Part shown: positions 12,220 to 43,011 of the stretch, piece by piece
Numbering within the stretch: the first letter of the stretch is position 1
Layout: every line of letters starts with the position of its first letter
Assembly (NCBI GenBank): GCA_019119335.1
Contig: DWXF01000053.1
Location: forward strand, 1 to 43,011
From: Candidatus Flavonifractor merdavium
GTDB taxonomy: Bacteria; Bacillota; Clostridia; Oscillospirales; Oscillospiraceae
DNA length: 43,011 bases
Reading direction: 5' to 3'
Position numbers and translations under genes: made by a program
The notes under the pieces: model-generated
Database searches by the model: none
What the model was told of the DNA's origin: nothing
What the model saw: only the letters and a program-made list of their open reading frames with translations

Positions 12220-12777
12220 TTATGGAGTGGATTCATCCGGTGCGCGGTAGGTCATAAAGACGTATTCCCAGTGTTCGTCGTCCTGGTTGAGGTGGGCGTT
12301 GTGGGTATCCAGGTATTTCAGAATAAGGGCAAACAGCTCCTTCCGTTCCTCGGGTGAAAGATGAAATGCCCCGAACCGGAGCAGGCAGTGCTGGTCCAGC
12401 TCGTTTTCCGGGTACTGGTGGGTGGCGTTGATCAGGCCGCGAAAGGTGCCGTCCACAATGTTGGCGGCCATGGCCTCCCGCTCCCCCTGAAAGGTGTCTT
12501 TCTTGCCCAGATGGAGGCGGATTTCCACGTCGTCCAGAGTGTAGAGCACCACCTTGCGGTCGTTTATCTCCGTCTCCCGCTGCAGCACCACGCCCATGCC
12601 CACTAGTTTTTTCAGGTGCCCCTGGGCGGCGATGGGGGAGAGGTTCATCCGCCTTGCCACGCCGTTGGCGGACAGGGGCTTTCCGGCCAGACGCAGCAGA
12701 TGGATGATTTCCTGACGGACGGGATGCAGCAGAACCCGAAACTGACATTTTTGCTCCAAATCAATGATTCTGGGCAT
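12220..12777 (-). CDS. ArsR-like winged-helix transcriptional regulator
   Basis: A 185-residue protein. Residues about 10-80 form a winged helix of ArsR/HTH_20 style: HPVRQEIIHLLRLAGKPLSA, then IAAQGHLKKLVGMGVVLQ as recognition helix and wing. The C-terminal 100 residues (TFRGLINATHQYPENELDQ onward) are a helical, non-metal-binding region without cysteine clusters; the ligand is unknown. It has its own promoter (12810-12839) and terminator. It lies between a MATE exporter, also on the minus strand, and the ABC importer operon. Regulation of the exporter is plausible but not shown. Confidence 0.75.
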   Translation of the reverse strand: MPRIIDLEQKCQFRVLLHPVRQEIIHLLRLAGKPLSANGVARRMNLSPIAAQGHLKKLVGMGVVLQRETEINDRKVVLYTLDDVEIRLHLGKKDTFQGEREAMAANIVDGTFRGLINATHQYPENELDQHCLLRFGAFHLSPEERKELFALILKYLDTHNAHLNQDDEHWEYVFMTYRAPDESTP

Positions 12778-23193: not shown

Positions 23194-25872
23194 TTGGCCA
23201 CAGCACGAAAGAAAACCACGGGAGGAAAGCGGGCGGCTCCCGCAAAGAGCCGTTCCGCCTCCTCTGCCCGTTCCTCCGGCAGCCGGAAGAAACCCGCGCC
23301 CAGACCGGTCCGCCGGGAGGTGGGGGCGGTGGTCTGCCTGCTGTTGGCCATCTTTTCCGCCTTTGGCTACTTTCATGTTCAGGCCATCTTCATTGATGTC
23401 TTCTGCGGCCTGGTCAAGGGCCTCATCGGTTATGGCTATTGGCTGCTGCCCCCCATGCTGCTGGTGGCCAGCGGCATTTTGCTGTTCCACCGGGGCCGTC
23501 CGGTGCGCTTCCGGGTGTGCTGCGCCCTGCTCACGCCGGTGCTGTTCGGCTGCCTGTTCCATCTGCTTCTGGCCAAGGGGCCCTATGAGTGGAAGCTGGA
23601 GCTGATTAAGACCCTGTGGACCCAGGGGGAGGGGATGCAAAGCGGCGGTGTGGTCAGCGGTCTGGTGGCGCTGGCCCTGACGGCGGTGTTCAGTAAGATT
23701 GGCGCGGGAGTCATCATTGTACTCATTGCCGCCATCATGCTGATGGTGGCGTTCCATGTCTCCCCGGTGGAGTTGGTGGATCAGCTGCGTTCCCGCCCCC
23801 GGGTGGAGTACGAGGAGGAGGAACTGCCCGAGCCCCGTCCCAGAGAGCGCCGGAAACCCGTCGCCCAGGAGACCCGGCCCGCCCCGGCGGCCAAGCGGCA
23901 GGAGTCTCCTCAGATCGACATTCCGGTGGACGAGGGGCCCCTGGTGGGCAAACAGACAGAGTCCAGGCCGGTGGAGAAGAAGGAGCACTTTTTCAACCGC
24001 AAGGCGGCGGTGCCAACCCCCGACCAGGTGTTGGCCGGTGTGGCGGGGGAGGCTCCGGAAAAGCCCCAGCCTGTGCCGGAGGAGCCGGTATTCCAGCCTT
24101 CGCCCGAACCGGCAGAGGAGGAGCTCCAGCCTGTCATCCCCGTAACCGAGCCGGTCCGGCCCGCGCCCGTCATGCCGGAGATCCAGCGGGAGCCCGCGGT
24201 GCCCGCCGCTCCCAAGAACAAGCGGGAGGAGACCGCCCAGGCCGCCGCGGAGGTGGCCCAGGATATCGCCCGCAACCTGGAGGAGGGTCCGGCTCCGGCC
24301 TATCACTATCCCCCTGTGTCGCTGCTGGCAGAGGGGGACGGCGCCTCCGAGGCCGACGTGGCCGGGGAGCTTCGGGCCAATCAGGCCCGCCTGTCCGATA
24401 CCATCCGCTCCTTTGGCATTGACGCCAGCATCGCCAACGTCACCCGGGGGCCGTCGGTGACCCGGTACGAGGTGGAGCTGGACCAGGGCGTGCGGCTGAA
24501 CAAGCTGACCAACCTGTCCGACGACATCGCTCTGGCGTTGGGCGCCACCGGCGTGCGCATCGCCCCCATTCCGGACAAGATCTCCATGGTGGGTATCGAG
24601 GTGCCCAATAAGCTGGTCTCTCCGGTACACATTCACGACGTGATCGACTCCCGGGAGTTCCGGGACAACCCCTCCAAGGTGTCCTTTGCCGTGGGCAGGG
24701 ACATCGGAAACAAAAACATTGTGGGCAACATTGCCAAGCTGCCCCATCTGCTCATCGCCGGCACCACCGGCTCCGGTAAGTCGGTGTGTACCAACTCCCT
24801 GATCATCTCCCTGCTGTACAAGGCCACCCCGGAGGAGGTCCGCCTGATCATGGTGGACCCCAAGATGGTGGAGCTGGGTATCTATAACGGCATTCCCCAC
24901 CTGCTGATCCCGGTGGTGACCGACCCCAAAAAGGCGGCCGGCGCCCTCCAGTGGGCGGTGGTGGAGATGATGAAGCGCTACCGCGCCTTCTCCGAGGTGG
25001 GGGTGCGGGACCTGGCCAGCTATAACGCCCATGCCGCCAAAACCGAGGGCATGGAGAAGATGCCCCAGATCGTGGTGGTTATCGACGAGCTGGCCGACCT
25101 GATGCTGGTGGCCGCCAAGGAGGTGGAGGAATCCATCTGCCGGGTGGCCCAGATGGGCCGTGCCGCCGGGATGCATCTGATTATTGCCACCCAGCGGCCC
25201 TCCGCCGACGTGATCACCGGCCTGATGAAAGCCAATATCCCAAGCCGCATCGCCTTTGCGGTGGCCTCCTCTCTGGAATCCCGCATCATCCTGGATACTA
25301 CCGGCGCGGAAAAGCTGGTGGGCCGGGGCGACATGCTCTACTTCCCCCTGGGTACCGGCAAGCCCCAGCGGGTCCAGGGCTGCCTGATCTCCGACGAGGA
25401 GGTAGCCGCCGTGGTGGGCTTTATCAAGCAGAACAGCGGCACCGCCCAGTATGACCAGGAGATCATCCACGACATCGAGCAGCATGCCGCCGAGAAGGAG
25501 AAGGGGAGCAAGGGCGTGGGCGGCTCCGCTCCCGAGGATGTGGGAGACGATTACGACGAGCTGCTCCCCTCCGCCATCGAGGTGGTGGTGGAGACCGGCA
25601 TGGCCTCGGTTTCCATGCTCCAGCGCCGCCTGAAGCTGGGCTACTCCCGGGCTGCCCGTCTGGTGGACCAGATGGAGGAGAAGGGAGTGGTGGGTCCCTT
25701 TGAGGGCTCCAAGCCCCGGCAGGTGCTCATCACCAAGGAGCAGTGGCAGGAGATGCAGTTCAAGCAGGATATGGTACCCACAGCCTCCGAGCCAGTCCCC
25801 GACGAGCTGGAGTTTGAGGGGGACGCCATCCCCCAGAGCAGGGATCTGCCGCCCTTCGATATGGATGACTGA
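23194..25872 (+). CDS. ftsK: FtsK/SpoIIIE family DNA translocase
   Basis: An 892-residue hexameric ATP-driven DNA pump that clears chromosomes from the division or sporulation septum. A basic Ala/Ser-rich N-terminus precedes four membrane helices (about residues 45-190), then a proline- and glutamate-rich linker (200-370). The motor has Walker A GTTGSGKS near 523, Walker B VVVIDELADLM near 625 and ATQRPSADVITGLMK. A C-terminal gamma winged helix (SVSMLQRRLKLGYSRAARL) would read polar KOPS/SRS sites. The start is TTG at 23194 behind GGAAAGGATC. In a spore former it may serve as SpoIIIE; FtsK versus SpoIIIE cannot be decided from sequence alone. Confidence 0.95.
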   Translation: MATARKKTTGGKRAAPAKSRSASSARSSGSRKKPAPRPVRREVGAVVCLLLAIFSAFGYFHVQAIFIDVFCGLVKGLIGYGYWLLPPMLLVASGILLFHRGRPVRFRVCCALLTPVLFGCLFHLLLAKGPYEWKLELIKTLWTQGEGMQSGGVVSGLVALALTAVFSKIGAGVIIVLIAAIMLMVAFHVSPVELVDQLRSRPRVEYEEEELPEPRPRERRKPVAQETRPAPAAKRQESPQIDIPVDEGPLVGKQTESRPVEKKEHFFNRKAAVPTPDQVLAGVAGEAPEKPQPVPEEPVFQPSPEPAEEELQPVIPVTEPVRPAPVMPEIQREPAVPAAPKNKREETAQAAAEVAQDIARNLEEGPAPAYHYPPVSLLAEGDGASEADVAGELRANQARLSDTIRSFGIDASIANVTRGPSVTRYEVELDQGVRLNKLTNLSDDIALALGATGVRIAPIPDKISMVGIEVPNKLVSPVHIHDVIDSREFRDNPSKVSFAVGRDIGNKNIVGNIAKLPHLLIAGTTGSGKSVCTNSLIISLLYKATPEEVRLIMVDPKMVELGIYNGIPHLLIPVVTDPKKAAGALQWAVVEMMKRYRAFSEVGVRDLASYNAHAAKTEGMEKMPQIVVVIDELADLMLVAAKEVEESICRVAQMGRAAGMHLIIATQRPSADVITGLMKANIPSRIAFAVASSLESRIILDTTGAEKLVGRGDMLYFPLGTGKPQRVQGCLISDEEVAAVVGFIKQNSGTAQYDQEIIHDIEQHAAEKEKGSKGVGGSAPEDVGDDYDELLPSAIEVVVETGMASVSMLQRRLKLGYSRAARLVDQMEEKGVVGPFEGSKPRQVLITKEQWQEMQFKQDMVPTASEPVPDELEFEGDAIPQSRDLPPFDMDD

Positions 25873-32805: not shown

Positions 32806-32885
32806 TTACAGAAAACGGCATGATTCCGTTTCCGGACAGACTTTGTCGAATGTCTTTTTCTAACAGTGAACTGGAAAGGCCTGAA

Positions 32886-33094
32886 CAGGTCCAATAAAAA
32901 CGGACAGTGGCAAAAGCCCCCCTGATGTAGAAAAATAGACTGCATCAGGGGGGCTTGTTATGGGAAAACGGAATTATACACATGTCCAGAAGCGGCTACT
33001 ATGCCTTTGTCCGTCGCCAGGATCGGCTCCGCCTAAGCCTCAAGATTTCCCACCAGGGGCTTTTTTATCCTGGCCGCACAACTTGGGGCAGTTC
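32886..33094 (+). mobile_element. Right insertion-sequence relic with IS3-type OrfB fragment
   Basis: It shares two blocks with the left relic (31440-31614). Between them it keeps a short coding remnant, MSRSGYYAFVRRQDRL (32982-33029). The R-S-G-Y-Y-A block is typical of the start of IS3-family OrfB transposases. The frame then leaves transposase similarity. The element is clearly dead. The stretch 32806-33456 otherwise holds no gene I can support. Confidence 0.55.
32914..32956 (+). terminator. Hairpin inside the right insertion-sequence relic
   Basis: AAGCCCCCCTGATG pairs with CATCAGGGGGGCTT around a 15-base A-rich loop. It is followed by GTTATGGG, not a T run. It may act as the gldA terminator or be an internal structure of the element; the left relic has lost it. 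Confidence 0.5.
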
Positions 33095-33393
33095 GCAGTT
33101 CAATCTTGATGGGGGATTTCTTTTTGCGCCCATGACCAAATCGTCTTCTGCATACAATAATCAAAACGCTGTAACCATGGAATGGGAGGGCGGAGCCGTT
33201 TACAAATATGGTTTGCGGTATTCGCAAATGTCCCGCATTCCTGCCATGGAAAAGGTCCAGCTGCTACTGTCTCCTGCGGTGTTCGGACTGCCGTTTGGGG
33301 GACGGTGATTGCCGGAAGCAGTAGATGAGAGTCGCCGTCATATCGAAGTAAATCTCCTTTTGGGGAGTGGATCAGAATCAGTAGTCGGTTGGG

Positions 33394-33427
33394 TGTACTT
33401 GTTTTTGTACAGCCTCGATGATAGAAT
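33394..33427 (+). promoter_or_regulatory. Promoter and operator-like palindrome of the WYL-nuclease pair
   Basis: TTGTTT-17-TAGAAT (33399-33427), 29 bases before the TTG start. TGTAC-N8-GTACA (33394-33411) overlaps the -35 box. WYL regulators often repress their own operon through such sites; binding by the adjacent protein is inference. Confidence 0.5.
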
Positions 33428-33456
33428 GTGGTTATTCTTTGGAAGGAGGGAGTTTC

Positions 33457-34467
33457 TTGTCCACCCATCTGCTTCCTGTTCGGCTATATCAAATTCTGGA
33501 GGAGCACAGTGACCCAGAGCGCCCTCTGTCTATGGGAGAACTGCGCCGCCTGCTTCGGCTGGAGTACGGCCTGACCTGTGACCGGCGGACAGTATATGGG
33601 GCGCTGGATACCCTGCGGCAGGCCGGGTTTGATATCCCGGAGTTCCAGGACAGCGGGGCGGGCTACTATCTGCTCTCCCGGCGGCTGGAGCCGTCGGAAG
33701 TGCGCCTGCTGCTGGACTGCGCCGCCGCCTTTCCCGGAATGGGAGAGCGGCAGTATCAGGACCTGAAAGAAAAGCTGCTCCGGGGGCTGAGCCGTTCCCA
33801 GCGCCAGAGCTGCCGCCCGCTCTCTCTGCCCGCGGTCTATCGGGGGATGAACCGGGAGGTATTACTGGCGGTGGAGGTGCTGGAGGAGGCGATCGCCGCC
33901 GGGCGGCAGGTATCCTTTCAGTATATGGAGTATGGAATGGACAAAAAGCTCCATCCCCGCCGGGAGCGGCCCTACCAGGTCCACCCCTATGGTCTTTGCT
34001 TTGCCAACGGAAATTACTATCTAATCTGCCGATACCTGGGGTATGACAATCTGAGCCACTATCGGGTGGACCGCATCCAGAGTCCTGTCCTGACACAGGA
34101 GCCCGTGGAAGCCCTGCCTCCCGGGCTGGACCTGTCCCGCTATGTGCGGGAGCGGGTCTATCAGATTTCCGGGAAAAGTATCCAGGCCGTTCTGCACTGT
34201 GAGAGCAGCCTGCTCAGCGACATCCTGGACCGCTTCGGTCTGGACACCATGCTCCGCGACAACGGAGACGGTACCTTTGACGCTGTGGTCGCTGCGGAGC
34301 CGGAGGGGCTGAAATTTTGGGCCATACAGTATCTGGAGCGCTGTGAGATCCTGCGGCCCCAGCGGCTGCGGCAGGAGCTGGCTCAAATGCTGCTGGAGGG
34401 CTGGGAGCTCTACCGCTCTTCCTCAATGCCGCTAGCGGAGCATCAGAGTATGGTAGGAGAAACCTGA
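33457..34467 (+). CDS. WYL domain-containing transcriptional regulator
   Basis: A 336-residue protein. The N-terminal winged helix (RLYQILEEHSDPERPLSMGE, then DRRTVYGALDTLRQAGFDI) is followed by the WYL domain: VSFQYMEYG near 153, YGLCFANGNYYLICRYLG near 178, and HYRVDRI near 202. The C-terminal third fits the WCX dimerisation/ligand region. WYL domains sense nucleic acid or nucleotide ligands in several anti-phage systems. The start is TTG 33457, behind GGAAGGAGGGAG; an in-frame ATG 13 codons earlier lies in that site's upstream region. One base separates its stop from the nuclease ATG, so the two are co-expressed. Codon use and location fit an accessory island. Confidence 0.85.
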   Translation: MSTHLLPVRLYQILEEHSDPERPLSMGELRRLLRLEYGLTCDRRTVYGALDTLRQAGFDIPEFQDSGAGYYLLSRRLEPSEVRLLLDCAAAFPGMGERQYQDLKEKLLRGLSRSQRQSCRPLSLPAVYRGMNREVLLAVEVLEEAIAAGRQVSFQYMEYGMDKKLHPRRERPYQVHPYGLCFANGNYYLICRYLGYDNLSHYRVDRIQSPVLTQEPVEALPPGLDLSRYVRERVYQISGKSIQAVLHCESSLLSDILDRFGLDTMLRDNGDGTFDAVVAAEPEGLKFWAIQYLERCEILRPQRLRQELAQMLLEGWELYRSSSMPLAEHQSMVGET

Positions 34468-34468
34468 G

Positions 34469-35821
34469 ATGAACGATGAAGCTAAGTTGGCTGCTGTTTT
34501 TCCCGTGCTGGCGGAGAGTGATCTGCCTATCGGGGAACTGGACATAGAAGTGGCGGCACGTAATTCTCTGCTGCGGAGCGGGATTCATACGGTAGCCCAG
34601 CTGCTGCAGCTGACCCATACGGAACTGGTAGGTCTCTTTCCCAATCGGGGCCTGCCCTTTTACAGCGAGATCATCTCCCGGTTGGCCTGCCTGGCACAGC
34701 CCCCAAAGACTGGAGAAACCAGCCGCACGTATACGGTGAAAAGCCTGTCGGATGGCATCTTGGGGGAAAGCAAGGTGAAAAGATTTAATATCTTTCAGGT
34801 GGCCGGCATCTGGAAATCCGAGGAGATCCACACCCGCATTATCGCGGAGCTGCTCAATCCCAACAGTAAGTTCCATGAAATGGGGACCGCATTTCTGCAA
34901 AAGCTTTTGGACAGACTGGGGCTGAAAGAAGATCTGTCCTTGAAGGAGTCCATTAAGGTAGAAACGGAAGTACATACTGTCGGGGAGGGTAAAGAGAACG
35001 AAAAATGTAAGAACCGGCGCATTGATATGACCATTGAGACCAGGCATTATTATCTGCCCTTTGAGGTGAAGATCTGGGCGGGGGATCAGGAGAGCCAGCT
35101 GTATGACTACTACCAATATGCGTGCTCATACGCGGAACAGCATGGGAAAAACAGACCACCCTGTATTTACTATCTGACCCCTGACGGACACGCACCCAGC
35201 GTTTGGAGCATAAAAAGCAGCACAGGCGATGGCGGACTGGACAACAAAGATTTCTGCCAACTGTCTTTCCGGGAAACTGTCCTCCTCTGGCTGGACGATT
35301 GCATGAATGACACAGACAAGCAGATTTCCGCCGATGTGCTGGAGATTATGCGGCAGCTGCGAGACAATATTGACGCCAACTTTCTGGTCGGTGAGGATAT
35401 CCTGGATGCCGTTCAGCAGGAACTGTCCTGCTATCACATTGAATGGACGGAATGTACAGATAAATATCGTACCTTTACCTTGAAAAAGGAAGGTAACTGG
35501 GAGGTGGCCCTGCGTATCCAAAAGTATTACAGCAAGGTCAAACTGTCCGTGATCTGCGGGCATGTGGAGGATACCGATGATGGGCCGCAGATTAGCTACG
35601 CCGGAAATCGTGAGCGCGAACAGATTCAGCATCTGTTGGAGGATACATTTACCTCTCCCCGGGATTACCTGAAACTCGACGTTGACGCAGCCTGGGACTG
35701 GTTCAGACAATCTCCCACCGCTTCCAAAGGGGATTTCATGAAAACCTTCAAAACATGCGTTTTTGGCCGCCTGGAAAAGTCGGTTCAGGCTCAGCTGTAC
35801 AGAGAAAGCTGCGAAGCCTGA
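34469..35821 (+). CDS. PD-(D/E)XK nuclease (PDDEXK_4-like) with N-terminal RpoA-CTD-like helix-hairpin-helix
   Basis: A 450-residue soluble protein. Residues about 27-72 (ARNSLLRSGIHTVAQLLQL, then ELVGLFPNRGLPFYSEII) follow the pattern of the RNA polymerase alpha-subunit C-terminal domain, a DNA-binding helix-hairpin-helix fold. Residues about 105-330 match PDDEXK_4 (PF14281): EEIHTRIIAELLNPNSKFHE, with Glu127, then RRIDMTIE with Asp186, and LPFEVKIWAGDQESQL with Glu199-x-Lys201. All catalytic residues are present, so it should be an active DNA or RNA nuclease. The C-terminal 150 residues are uncharacterised. It is translationally coupled to the WYL regulator. An anti-phage role is inferred. 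Confidence 0.8.
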   Translation: MNDEAKLAAVFPVLAESDLPIGELDIEVAARNSLLRSGIHTVAQLLQLTHTELVGLFPNRGLPFYSEIISRLACLAQPPKTGETSRTYTVKSLSDGILGESKVKRFNIFQVAGIWKSEEIHTRIIAELLNPNSKFHEMGTAFLQKLLDRLGLKEDLSLKESIKVETEVHTVGEGKENEKCKNRRIDMTIETRHYYLPFEVKIWAGDQESQLYDYYQYACSYAEQHGKNRPPCIYYLTPDGHAPSVWSIKSSTGDGGLDNKDFCQLSFRETVLLWLDDCMNDTDKQISADVLEIMRQLRDNIDANFLVGEDILDAVQQELSCYHIEWTECTDKYRTFTLKKEGNWEVALRIQKYYSKVKLSVICGHVEDTDDGPQISYAGNREREQIQHLLEDTFTSPRDYLKLDVDAAWDWFRQSPTASKGDFMKTFKTCVFGRLEKSVQAQLYRESCEA

Positions 35822-41740: not shown

Positions 41741-43011
41741 GTGTCAACAGTTTTGCGCAAATTGGTTTGCAGACTCTTGGATGAATGAAGTCAGCCGGCA
41801 ATGGAGGCGTCTTCAACGGCAGCCTCCAGGTGCTTCATATTCATGTACTTCTTGTTGCCCCACTGGGTGCCAGCCACATGGCGAAGTCGGGCACAAACCA
41901 GCATGAGGGCGGAGTTGCCGTCTGGGAAGCTGCCCACCACACGAGTGCGGCGGCGGATCTCCCGGTTCAGTCTCTCAATGACATTATTGGTGCGGATGCG
42001 AGTCCAGTGTTCGCTGGGAAAATCGCAGTAGGTCAGCGTTTCCTCAATACCATCCTCCACCTTTTTAGCAGCCTCCTTCAGCTTCATAGAACGTAGTTCC
42101 TCCACCACGGCTTTGGCCTTCTCCCGGGCAGCTTTCTTGCTCTCCTGGGCATGGATCGCCTTGAGCATCTTGGCCACCAGCTTCACCTTGGAGCGAGGCG
42201 TGACAGAGAACACGTTGCGGTAAAAATGGACAGTGCAACGCTGGTACTTGGCTTTGGGGAACACTTCTCCCACAGCCTCCAGCATACCCAAGCACTTGTC
42301 TCCAACCACCAGCTTGACCCCGTCCAAGCCACGGCTACGCAGCCACTGGAAGAAGCTGACCCAGCTGGCCTTGTCCTCTTTCATGCCCTCAGCGGCACCC
42401 AGGACCTCACGGTATCCATCCTCATTGACCGCAATCGCCACCAGAATGGCTACATTTTCAAACTCTCCGCCCCAGTTGCGGCGCAGATAGATCCCATCCA
42501 CATAGACATACGGATACCGCCCACCTTGCAAAGGACGGTTACGCCAATCTTCAATGTGGACATACGCCTTCTTGTTCAGCTCACTGATGGTGGAGGGAGA
42601 CACCTTGCTACCCCACAGAGCCTCGGTAATATCCTCTACACGCCGAACGGATACGCCTGCCTACATCTCAATGAGAGCCTCTTCTACACTGCTTTCCCGG
42701 CGGCGATACCGCTCGATGATGGCAGTTTCAAAAGAGATACCCTTGAGCTTAGGCACCTTCAAGGTAACATCCCCGGAAGTGGTGGTGAGGTTTCGGCTAT
42801 AGTGGCCGCTGCGGTAGCCCTGCCGCTGCTCATTACGCTCGTACCGAGCAGCCTGAGTCAACTTCTCCGCCTCGGCCTCCAGCAACTCGTTGAGGGTTTC
42901 CTCTACACTGCCTCGCACCAACTCCTTGAGCTGCCCCTTGATAACTTCCTCGTTTAGCTGTACAATCTTCTCGGACATGGTTTGCTGTCTCCTTTCAGAA
43001 TGGTGTGTCGC
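41741..43011 (-). mobile_element. IS256 family insertion sequence, cut by the window end
   Basis: The left end is placed at GTGTCAACAGTTTTGCGCAA (41741 onward), directly after the carrier gene. The transposase reads leftward from 42978. The other end lies past 43011, so the inverted repeat and target duplication cannot be confirmed. Confidence 0.8.
41791..42978 (-). pseudogene. IS256 family transposase interrupted by an in-frame TAG
   Basis: One frame of 396 codons runs from ATG 42978 to the stop at 41791 with a TAG at 42663-42661 (residue 106). Before it is the N-terminal domain (RNEQRQGYRSGHYSRNL, then VPKLKGISFETAI). After it is a complete DDE domain: VYVDGIYLRRNWGG with the first Asp near residue 161, LVVGDKCLGML with the second Asp, and the Glu in TNNVIERLNREIRRR. 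Around the stop the usual M-Y-L-A-G-V-S reads M-stop-A-G-V-S, so loss of three bases (ATGTAcctGGCA to ATGTAGGCA) would explain it. Probably inactive unless the amber codon is suppressed. Confidence 0.88.

Follow-up and report, generated by a model that had tools for sequence, protein, structure and literature searches.

A WYL regulator with a predicted conserved operator precedes a candidate PDC-S26 nuclease bearing an RNA polymerase alpha-CTD-like head in Candidatus Flavonifractor merdavium

We analysed a window of 43,011 nucleotides from Candidatus Flavonifractor merdavium (Oscillospiraceae), one whole 43-kb contig (DWXF01000053.1) of a 2.76-Mb genome that is 82% complete, and focused on two adjacent genes encoding a WYL-domain regulator and a nuclease. 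An earlier model-made account, based on the letters and their open reading frames (ORFs) and here called the sequence-only reading, had proposed that the two genes are coupled and form a candidate undescribed defence module. The coupling was confirmed: both plus-strand ORFs were found, a single base separates the WYL stop codon from the nuclease ATG, and Pfam recognised the domains of both products. The WYL frame is open from 33418 to 34467, its likely true start being a TTG at 33457, which is preceded by AAGGAGGG at 33443–33450. Pfam matched WYL (5.9e-14) and WCX (3.1e-5) domains in the regulator, for which NCBIfam had no family. The second protein matched PDDEXK_4 (PF14281; 3.3e-24, residues 106–286) and, ahead of it, RNA_pol_A_CTD (3.1e-6, residues 16–72; 27.2 bits versus a cut-off of 23.8), in agreement with the proposal that a segment resembling the C-terminal domain of the RNA polymerase alpha subunit (alpha-CTD), hereafter the head, is joined to a PDDEXK_4 nuclease. 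Coordinates are collected in Table 1; related loci and genomes carry L and G numbers, respectively.

Asp186, Glu199 and Lys201, the catalytic residues described as intact, were invariant in a four-sequence alignment that included two distant homologues (29% and 26% identical), and judged from this triad the window protein is probably an active nuclease. PADLOC assigned it to a candidate family, with matches to 12 PDC-S26 models (best E 1.3e-39), so the label of an undescribed module is not supported. The best match, from residue 102 to 285 and model position 27 to 197 of 389, is not full length, with the head outside it and the C-terminal half uncovered. The L013 and L082 nucleases matched PDC-S26 across nearly the full model, and all six paired nucleases tested (window, L008, L009, L012, L013 and L082) matched the family. 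PDCs are described as single-gene candidates in the excerpts of PMC12988326, which do not name PDC-S26, whereas the window nuclease is paired with a WYL gene. In its AlphaFold model, usable for the core only, the predicted local distance difference test (pLDDT) score of the core was mostly 73–90. No fold match reached an E value of 0.001 or better; the best (0.03) was no nuclease, the four best were not restriction-type nucleases by title, and McrBC, Hjc and EcoO109I appeared at 0.19 or worse.

The operator-like palindrome noted in the common promoter, TGTAC-N8-GTACA, proved to be shared among related loci. It was exact in 8 of 13 orthologous WYL upstream regions (window, L007, L011, L012, L013, L014, L016 and L017), had one mismatch in L018 and L019 and two in L008 and L009, and was not found upstream of the L010 gene. 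The count left out L015, with just 5 bases of upstream sequence, and L082, whose divergent WYL gene lacks this operator. Shuffled sequences predict 0.0013 exact copies per 13 regions, a figure that is not a probability because the loci are related; by comparison, any inverted repeat with 5 + 5 arms occurred in 11 of the 13 regions and in 8.0 after shuffling, little above chance. Two-mismatch sites are weak taken alone, L014 having two of them besides its exact one, and that of L008, at 102 bases upstream, is not in the promoter-proximal position. DNA flanking the operator aligns poorly beyond the site (window, L003 and L004), and its orientation is inverted between locus groups. On these comparative grounds the operator is a real conserved footprint, and the WYL regulator likely binds it.

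The presumed promoter of the window, recognised by eye, fell below the threshold of a promoter scan and was unlisted; the L009 promoter, also read by eye, has the same layout, with TTGTTT in the site and TATAAT 17 bp away. Because TTGTTT lies within the site and 17 bp from the −10 element in both loci, a bound regulator would cover the −35 element, and the position of the site makes repression rather than activation probable in the source genome. That genome contains two exact operator sites, the window's being one. With only one further site, control would be local; a wide WYL regulon was rejected, as a backward control pattern gave three sites.

Pairing of WYL and nuclease genes recurs beyond the window. 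The nuclease was matched in 4 of 99 relatives (own genome counted), and PF14281 gave 19 matches in 16 of 400 family genomes. The stretches around all 18 non-window matches were examined alongside the window, and a WYL gene adjoins nine of the 19, directly upstream in eight (window, G005, G124, contig C114 and the decayed C91 of G048, G442, contig C49 of G336, and G264) and directly downstream, in reversed gene order, in G226. In a class sample, PF14281 was present in 12 of 391 genomes; among 11 non-window matches with flanks of up to 1.5 kb, one (G638) had a WYL gene upstream. Adjacency was judged by a profile built from 38 WYL proteins, which may miss distant ones, and some stretches end near the gene. 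As the WYL genes of G264, G226 and G638 do not belong to the clade of the window gene, and the PDC-S26 model closest to the G264 nuclease is a different one, the association, by these sequence relationships, originated or was retained on more than one occasion. The neighbourhood survey envisaged in the sequence-only reading thus did find recurring pairs, nine among the family matches and with several WYL types. A contig scan with the nuclease as query confirmed no relatives; a later one with a WYL alignment gave 14 loci.

The same regulator also precedes a different kind of gene. We defined a clade set of 14 loci (the window and L007–L019, leaving out L020 at 28% identity), across which WYL identity to the query is at least 61% except in the decayed L019 (46%). 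PDDEXK_4 lies next to the WYL gene in eight (window, L007, L008, L009, L012, L013, L018 and the decayed L019), and in three (L014, L016 and L017) the cargo is a protein of 215–220 residues with GESHH and HP motifs, which is a candidate alternative cargo of the WYL–operator unit. These proteins had no Pfam family and no significant NCBIfam family, and PADLOC found nothing in those of L014 and L017 beyond a weak Cas8b match of the former at 0.008. The motifs are reminiscent of uracil-DNA-glycosylase-like proteins. In L019 (1737–3504, equivalent to L095) the WYL frame runs out and the nuclease lacks a start and has further breaks, followed by a recombinase remnant (DUF4368); the same genome, G048, holds an intact pair elsewhere.

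Table 1. Coordinates of the WYL–nuclease pair, its control region and related features (window positions unless a locus is named)
Feature	Location	Strand	Basis or remark
Operator TGTAC-N8-GTACA, TGTACTTGTTTTTGTACA (reverse strand TGTACAAAAACAAGTACA)	33394–33411		overlaps presumed −35
Presumed promoter: TTGTTT (33399–33404), 17 bp, TAGAAT (33422–33427)	33399–33427	+	by eye; −35 inside operator
WYL regulator (N-terminal helix-turn-helix (HTH) region, WYL, WCX)	33457–34467	+	Pfam; start aligned with L003 and L004 orthologues
Alpha-CTD-like/PDDEXK_4 nuclease, 450 amino acids	34469–35821	+	Pfam; PADLOC PDC-S26; AGGAG at 34455–34459
RNA polymerase alpha-CTD-like domain, residues 16–76	34514–34696	+	Pfam RNA_pol_A_CTD
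PD-(D/E)XK catalytic domain (Asp186, Glu199, Lys201)	34784–35326	+	Pfam PDDEXK_4; profile search of genome
Variable C-terminal region, residues 310–450	35396–35818	+	without Pfam match
GESHH-motif protein genes	L014 7020–7667; L016 2993–3646; L017 2422–3084		behind same WYL gene and operator
DUF4368 serine-recombinase parts	L013 6623–6964; L018 8243–8638; L008 10629–11429; L014 9119–9439		downstream of WYL modules

In the source genome as assembled, RNA_pol_A_CTD matched twice, in rpoA (4.8e-28) and in the nuclease head (7.5e-7), and NCBIfam matched the nuclease protein to rpoA models only, below cut-off. Aligned with the CTD of RpoA from the same genome, the head shows 33% identity, but it differs in being fused to a nuclease, and its predicted model was poor (mean pLDDT 50), with RNA polymerase alpha-CTD chains as the best matches at an E value of 0.47 at best. 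In alignment, VRSFNCL...RNLGRKSL of RpoA corresponds to VAARNSL...PNRGLPFY of the head, which lacks most residues of the 265 determinant, the DNA-contact set of alpha-CTD: the Asn of VRSxN is kept in four of four heads, and Arg, Lys and most others are changed. Because of these changes the suggestion that this helix-hairpin-helix segment targets the nuclease to DNA lacked support and was dropped as the leading idea, and we favour the head as a putative protein-binding rather than DNA-binding part.

We saw the head in four related loci: the window, L009 (7.5e-6, 26.0 bits), L008 (9.8e-8, 32.1 bits) and L007, which was outside the Pfam scan and is assigned by alignment. That scan, of 29 PDDEXK_4 proteins, found a fused head in two (window and L009), a separate one beside L008 and none in 26; the head is absent from six of ten paired nucleases tested (L012, L013, L018, L082, L096 and L142). 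In L008 (6280–7642) the head is a separate intact ORF that overlaps the start of the nuclease ORF by 8 bases, and the nuclease ORF has a separate AGGAG; the split may be natural or, because L008 comes from a metagenome assembly, a frameshift. Compared with the nearest named relative, an uncultured Flavonifractor (L007), the WYL protein is 86% and the head 84% identical, and the C-terminal region 30% or 37% depending on the alignment; the ratio of nonsynonymous to synonymous change (dN/dS) of 0.16 for the head in this comparison indicates purifying selection. L008 and L009 are 86% identical in the head and 90% in the WYL protein, and the window and L009 just 46–48% and 74%.

Synonymous differences between the window and L007 were 0.46 for WYL, 0.47 for the head, 0.60 for the nuclease and 0.81 for the C terminus, and between L008 and L009 0.25, 0.24, 0.46 and 0.65, respectively, values that at first seemed to group the head with WYL. 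With the comparison confined to codons for identical residues, no difference remained between the head and the catalytic domain (pooled P = 0.34), whereas WYL was weakly distinct from the catalytic domain (pooled P = 0.025) and clearly distinct from the C terminus (P = 0.0019 and 0.00096). The idea that WYL and alpha-CTD form a constant block that recombines as a unit was dropped after this test; between the window and L009, moreover, the head diverges like the nuclease and unlike WYL. As only the C terminus clearly differs from WYL, the sole claim we make is that this region has a different or faster history.

The surroundings of the pair and of its relatives point to mobility. About 108 bp just upstream (32882–32989) has many copies in genus genomes, several near contig ends, and lies beside an IS3-like reading frame recognised by eye; it is probably the remains of an IS3-type element, and frame 32955–33308 had no Pfam match. 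A Mutator-family transposase frame (1e-71) lies at 41791–42603, near the contig end. Of the neighbours named in the sequence-only reading, the mobile-element relics therefore stand, and lateral transfer of the glycerol dehydrogenase gene is at most plausible, since that gene gave weak partial DNA matches only (20 genomes searched, own included). G014 and G018 share the sigma-54 activator gene located after the pair, at 96% and 94% identity, respectively, and DNA similarity of the window to these genomes begins just 41 and 70 bases past the nuclease stop. In G018 and G002, rpoB/rpoC-like genes (by eye), not the pair, precede this activator gene; barring a misassembly of the contig, the pair therefore lies at a rearranged or inserted place in the source genome. 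Seven related loci (L008, L013, L014, L016, L018, L019 and L082) have genes for recombinases or integrases, or remnants of such genes, nearby. The DUF4368 parts lie 18–135 bases past the nuclease in L018 and L013 and immediately behind the decayed L019 copy; those of L008 and L014 are more distant, and the L008 part comes with a recombinase zinc ribbon. Their placement suggests carriage by integrative elements. Elsewhere, the annotation of an Aliarcobacter plasmid record (L147 4866–8295) places PDDEXK_4, DUF2779 and WYL genes in a row, and the PDDEXK_4 genes of G355 (L092 3180–4262 and L094 8344–9537) are near TIR-domain genes (TIR_2, 1.5e-10 and 1.1e-9).

WYL control of defence genes is already known, as are PDC-S26 nucleases. 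In the excerpts available of the respective sources, CapW is a repressor of CBASS that binds palindromes overlapping the promoter (PMC9122588), BrxR adjoins diverse defence systems and recognises inverted repeats (PMC9122601), and single-stranded DNA ends CapW/BrxR repression (PMC13373217). The pair resembles these cases in having its regulator gene first, a palindrome in the promoter, varied cargo behind related regulators and both WYL and WCX domains; it differs in that its site covers the presumed −35 rather than the −10 and in that its cargo is one nuclease gene, unlike CBASS and BREX. On balance, we regard it as probable that the pair is a two-gene, locally autoregulated nuclease module, most likely directed against phages or mobile elements and spread by the latter. 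We infer the defence role from PDC-S26 membership, patchiness, cargo exchange and the company that WYL regulators keep in those excerpts. A WYL dimer would bind TGTAC-N8-GTACA, covering the −35 of the promoter from which it is itself expressed, and keep the operon low. Repression would end, and the nuclease be made, when the WYL/WCX part binds a nucleic acid that signals infection or damage, which for CapW/BrxR is single-stranded DNA. The PD-(D/E)XK domain would then cut nucleic acid, with recognition determined by the rapidly changing C-terminal half and the head acting as a protein-binding or structural adaptor, not a DNA anchor.

Several observations weigh against this interpretation. No WYL gene lies beside 10 of the 19 family matches or 10 of the 11 class matches in the stretches examined, and neither cargo is present in three of the 14 clade loci: L010, where an ABC gene lies close to the end of the contig, L011, which has a TrkH gene, and L015. 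In the L011–L018 group the inverted operator lies, by eye, upstream of its own −35 and over the −35 of a divergent promoter, a placement that suits activation as well as repression. The regulator weakly matched five distinct chains of solved WYL structures (residues 171–315, E 5e-4 to 1e-3), some of which may be DriD, an activator; because the printed names do not identify the proteins, the kinship may be with CapW/BrxR or with activators. PADLOC recognised no other defence system among 10 other window proteins, so a defence island in the window is not supported: eight had no match, and we interpret a Csa3-type match at 12220–12777 (6.7e-7) as a common HTH regulator and SspH/mad8/HerA matches at 23194–25872 as a translocase of the FtsK type.

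Other explanations account for parts of these data. The pair could be a DNA-damage or stress operon whose WYL protein senses damaged DNA and whose nuclease acts in repair or programmed turnover of the cell's own nucleic acid, with no phage role. The WYL proteins PafBC and SiwR act in damage responses, according to excerpts of PMC11804915 and PMC10693628, and Holliday-junction resolvases are among the fold matches of the nuclease core, though below significance. However, the patchy occurrence (4 of 99 and 16 of 400 genomes), the shifting genomic place, the exchangeable cargo and the strongly diverging C terminus are unlike a housekeeping enzyme, and we think a damage operon unlikely. Carriage by integrative elements or plasmids as a weapon against rival elements, rather than for the host, is likewise unlikely in our view and would not exclude host defence. 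Such a weapon would suit the serine-recombinase parts near L018, L013, L019, L008 and L014, the phage-integrase-family gene about 440 bases after the G264 pair, a relative of which precedes the L016 WYL gene, and the PDDEXK_4 relatives beside ParA/ParB-type genes on two Vibrionaceae plasmids (H1 and H4); however, comparison with three of these recombinase/integrase sequences found no such gene in the window, no relative was found in 50,697 phage records or in two IMG/VR scans that covered short patterns only, and none on plasmids was full length. The same phage records and viral-contig scans led us to reject a phage-borne origin.

The one-base gap between the genes would also be expected of a toxin–antitoxin-like pair whose WYL protein, besides repressing the operon, would sequester the nuclease, perhaps through the head, until release kills the cell. 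The head is about as conserved as WYL between the window and L007 and between L008 and L009, and in L008 it is an ORF of its own, but it falls far behind WYL between the window and L009 and is missing from six of the ten paired nucleases tested, leaving this arrangement very doubtful. Quite improbable, too, is a composite in which the head is a molecular mimic or handle gripped by alpha-CTD-binding proteins (its own WYL regulator or phage transcription-takeover proteins) and the WYL–operator unit, sometimes with the head, serves as an unchanging cassette for sensing and control that is transported by elements carrying recombinases and swaps its cargo (for instance PDDEXK_4 or GESHH).

Returning to the autoregulated nuclease module that we favour, what is unusual, as judged from sequence, is the alpha-CTD-like head and the WYL–operator unit with exchangeable cargo. 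In the open-licence PubMed Central literature, we found no description that combines a WYL regulator, a conserved operator belonging to it, exchange of cargo and a head resembling polymerase, nor anything under PDC-S26 or PDDEXK_4 by name, and nothing relevant to an alpha-CTD fused to a nuclease or an alpha-CTD decoy was among the matches listed. Together, these data link the PDC-S26 nucleases, which are unvalidated candidates, to a recurrent dedicated regulator whose predicted operator is directly testable, show that a WYL control unit is reused with different cargo in Oscillospiraceae-type bacteria, and present an RNA-polymerase-like domain joined to a candidate immune nuclease.

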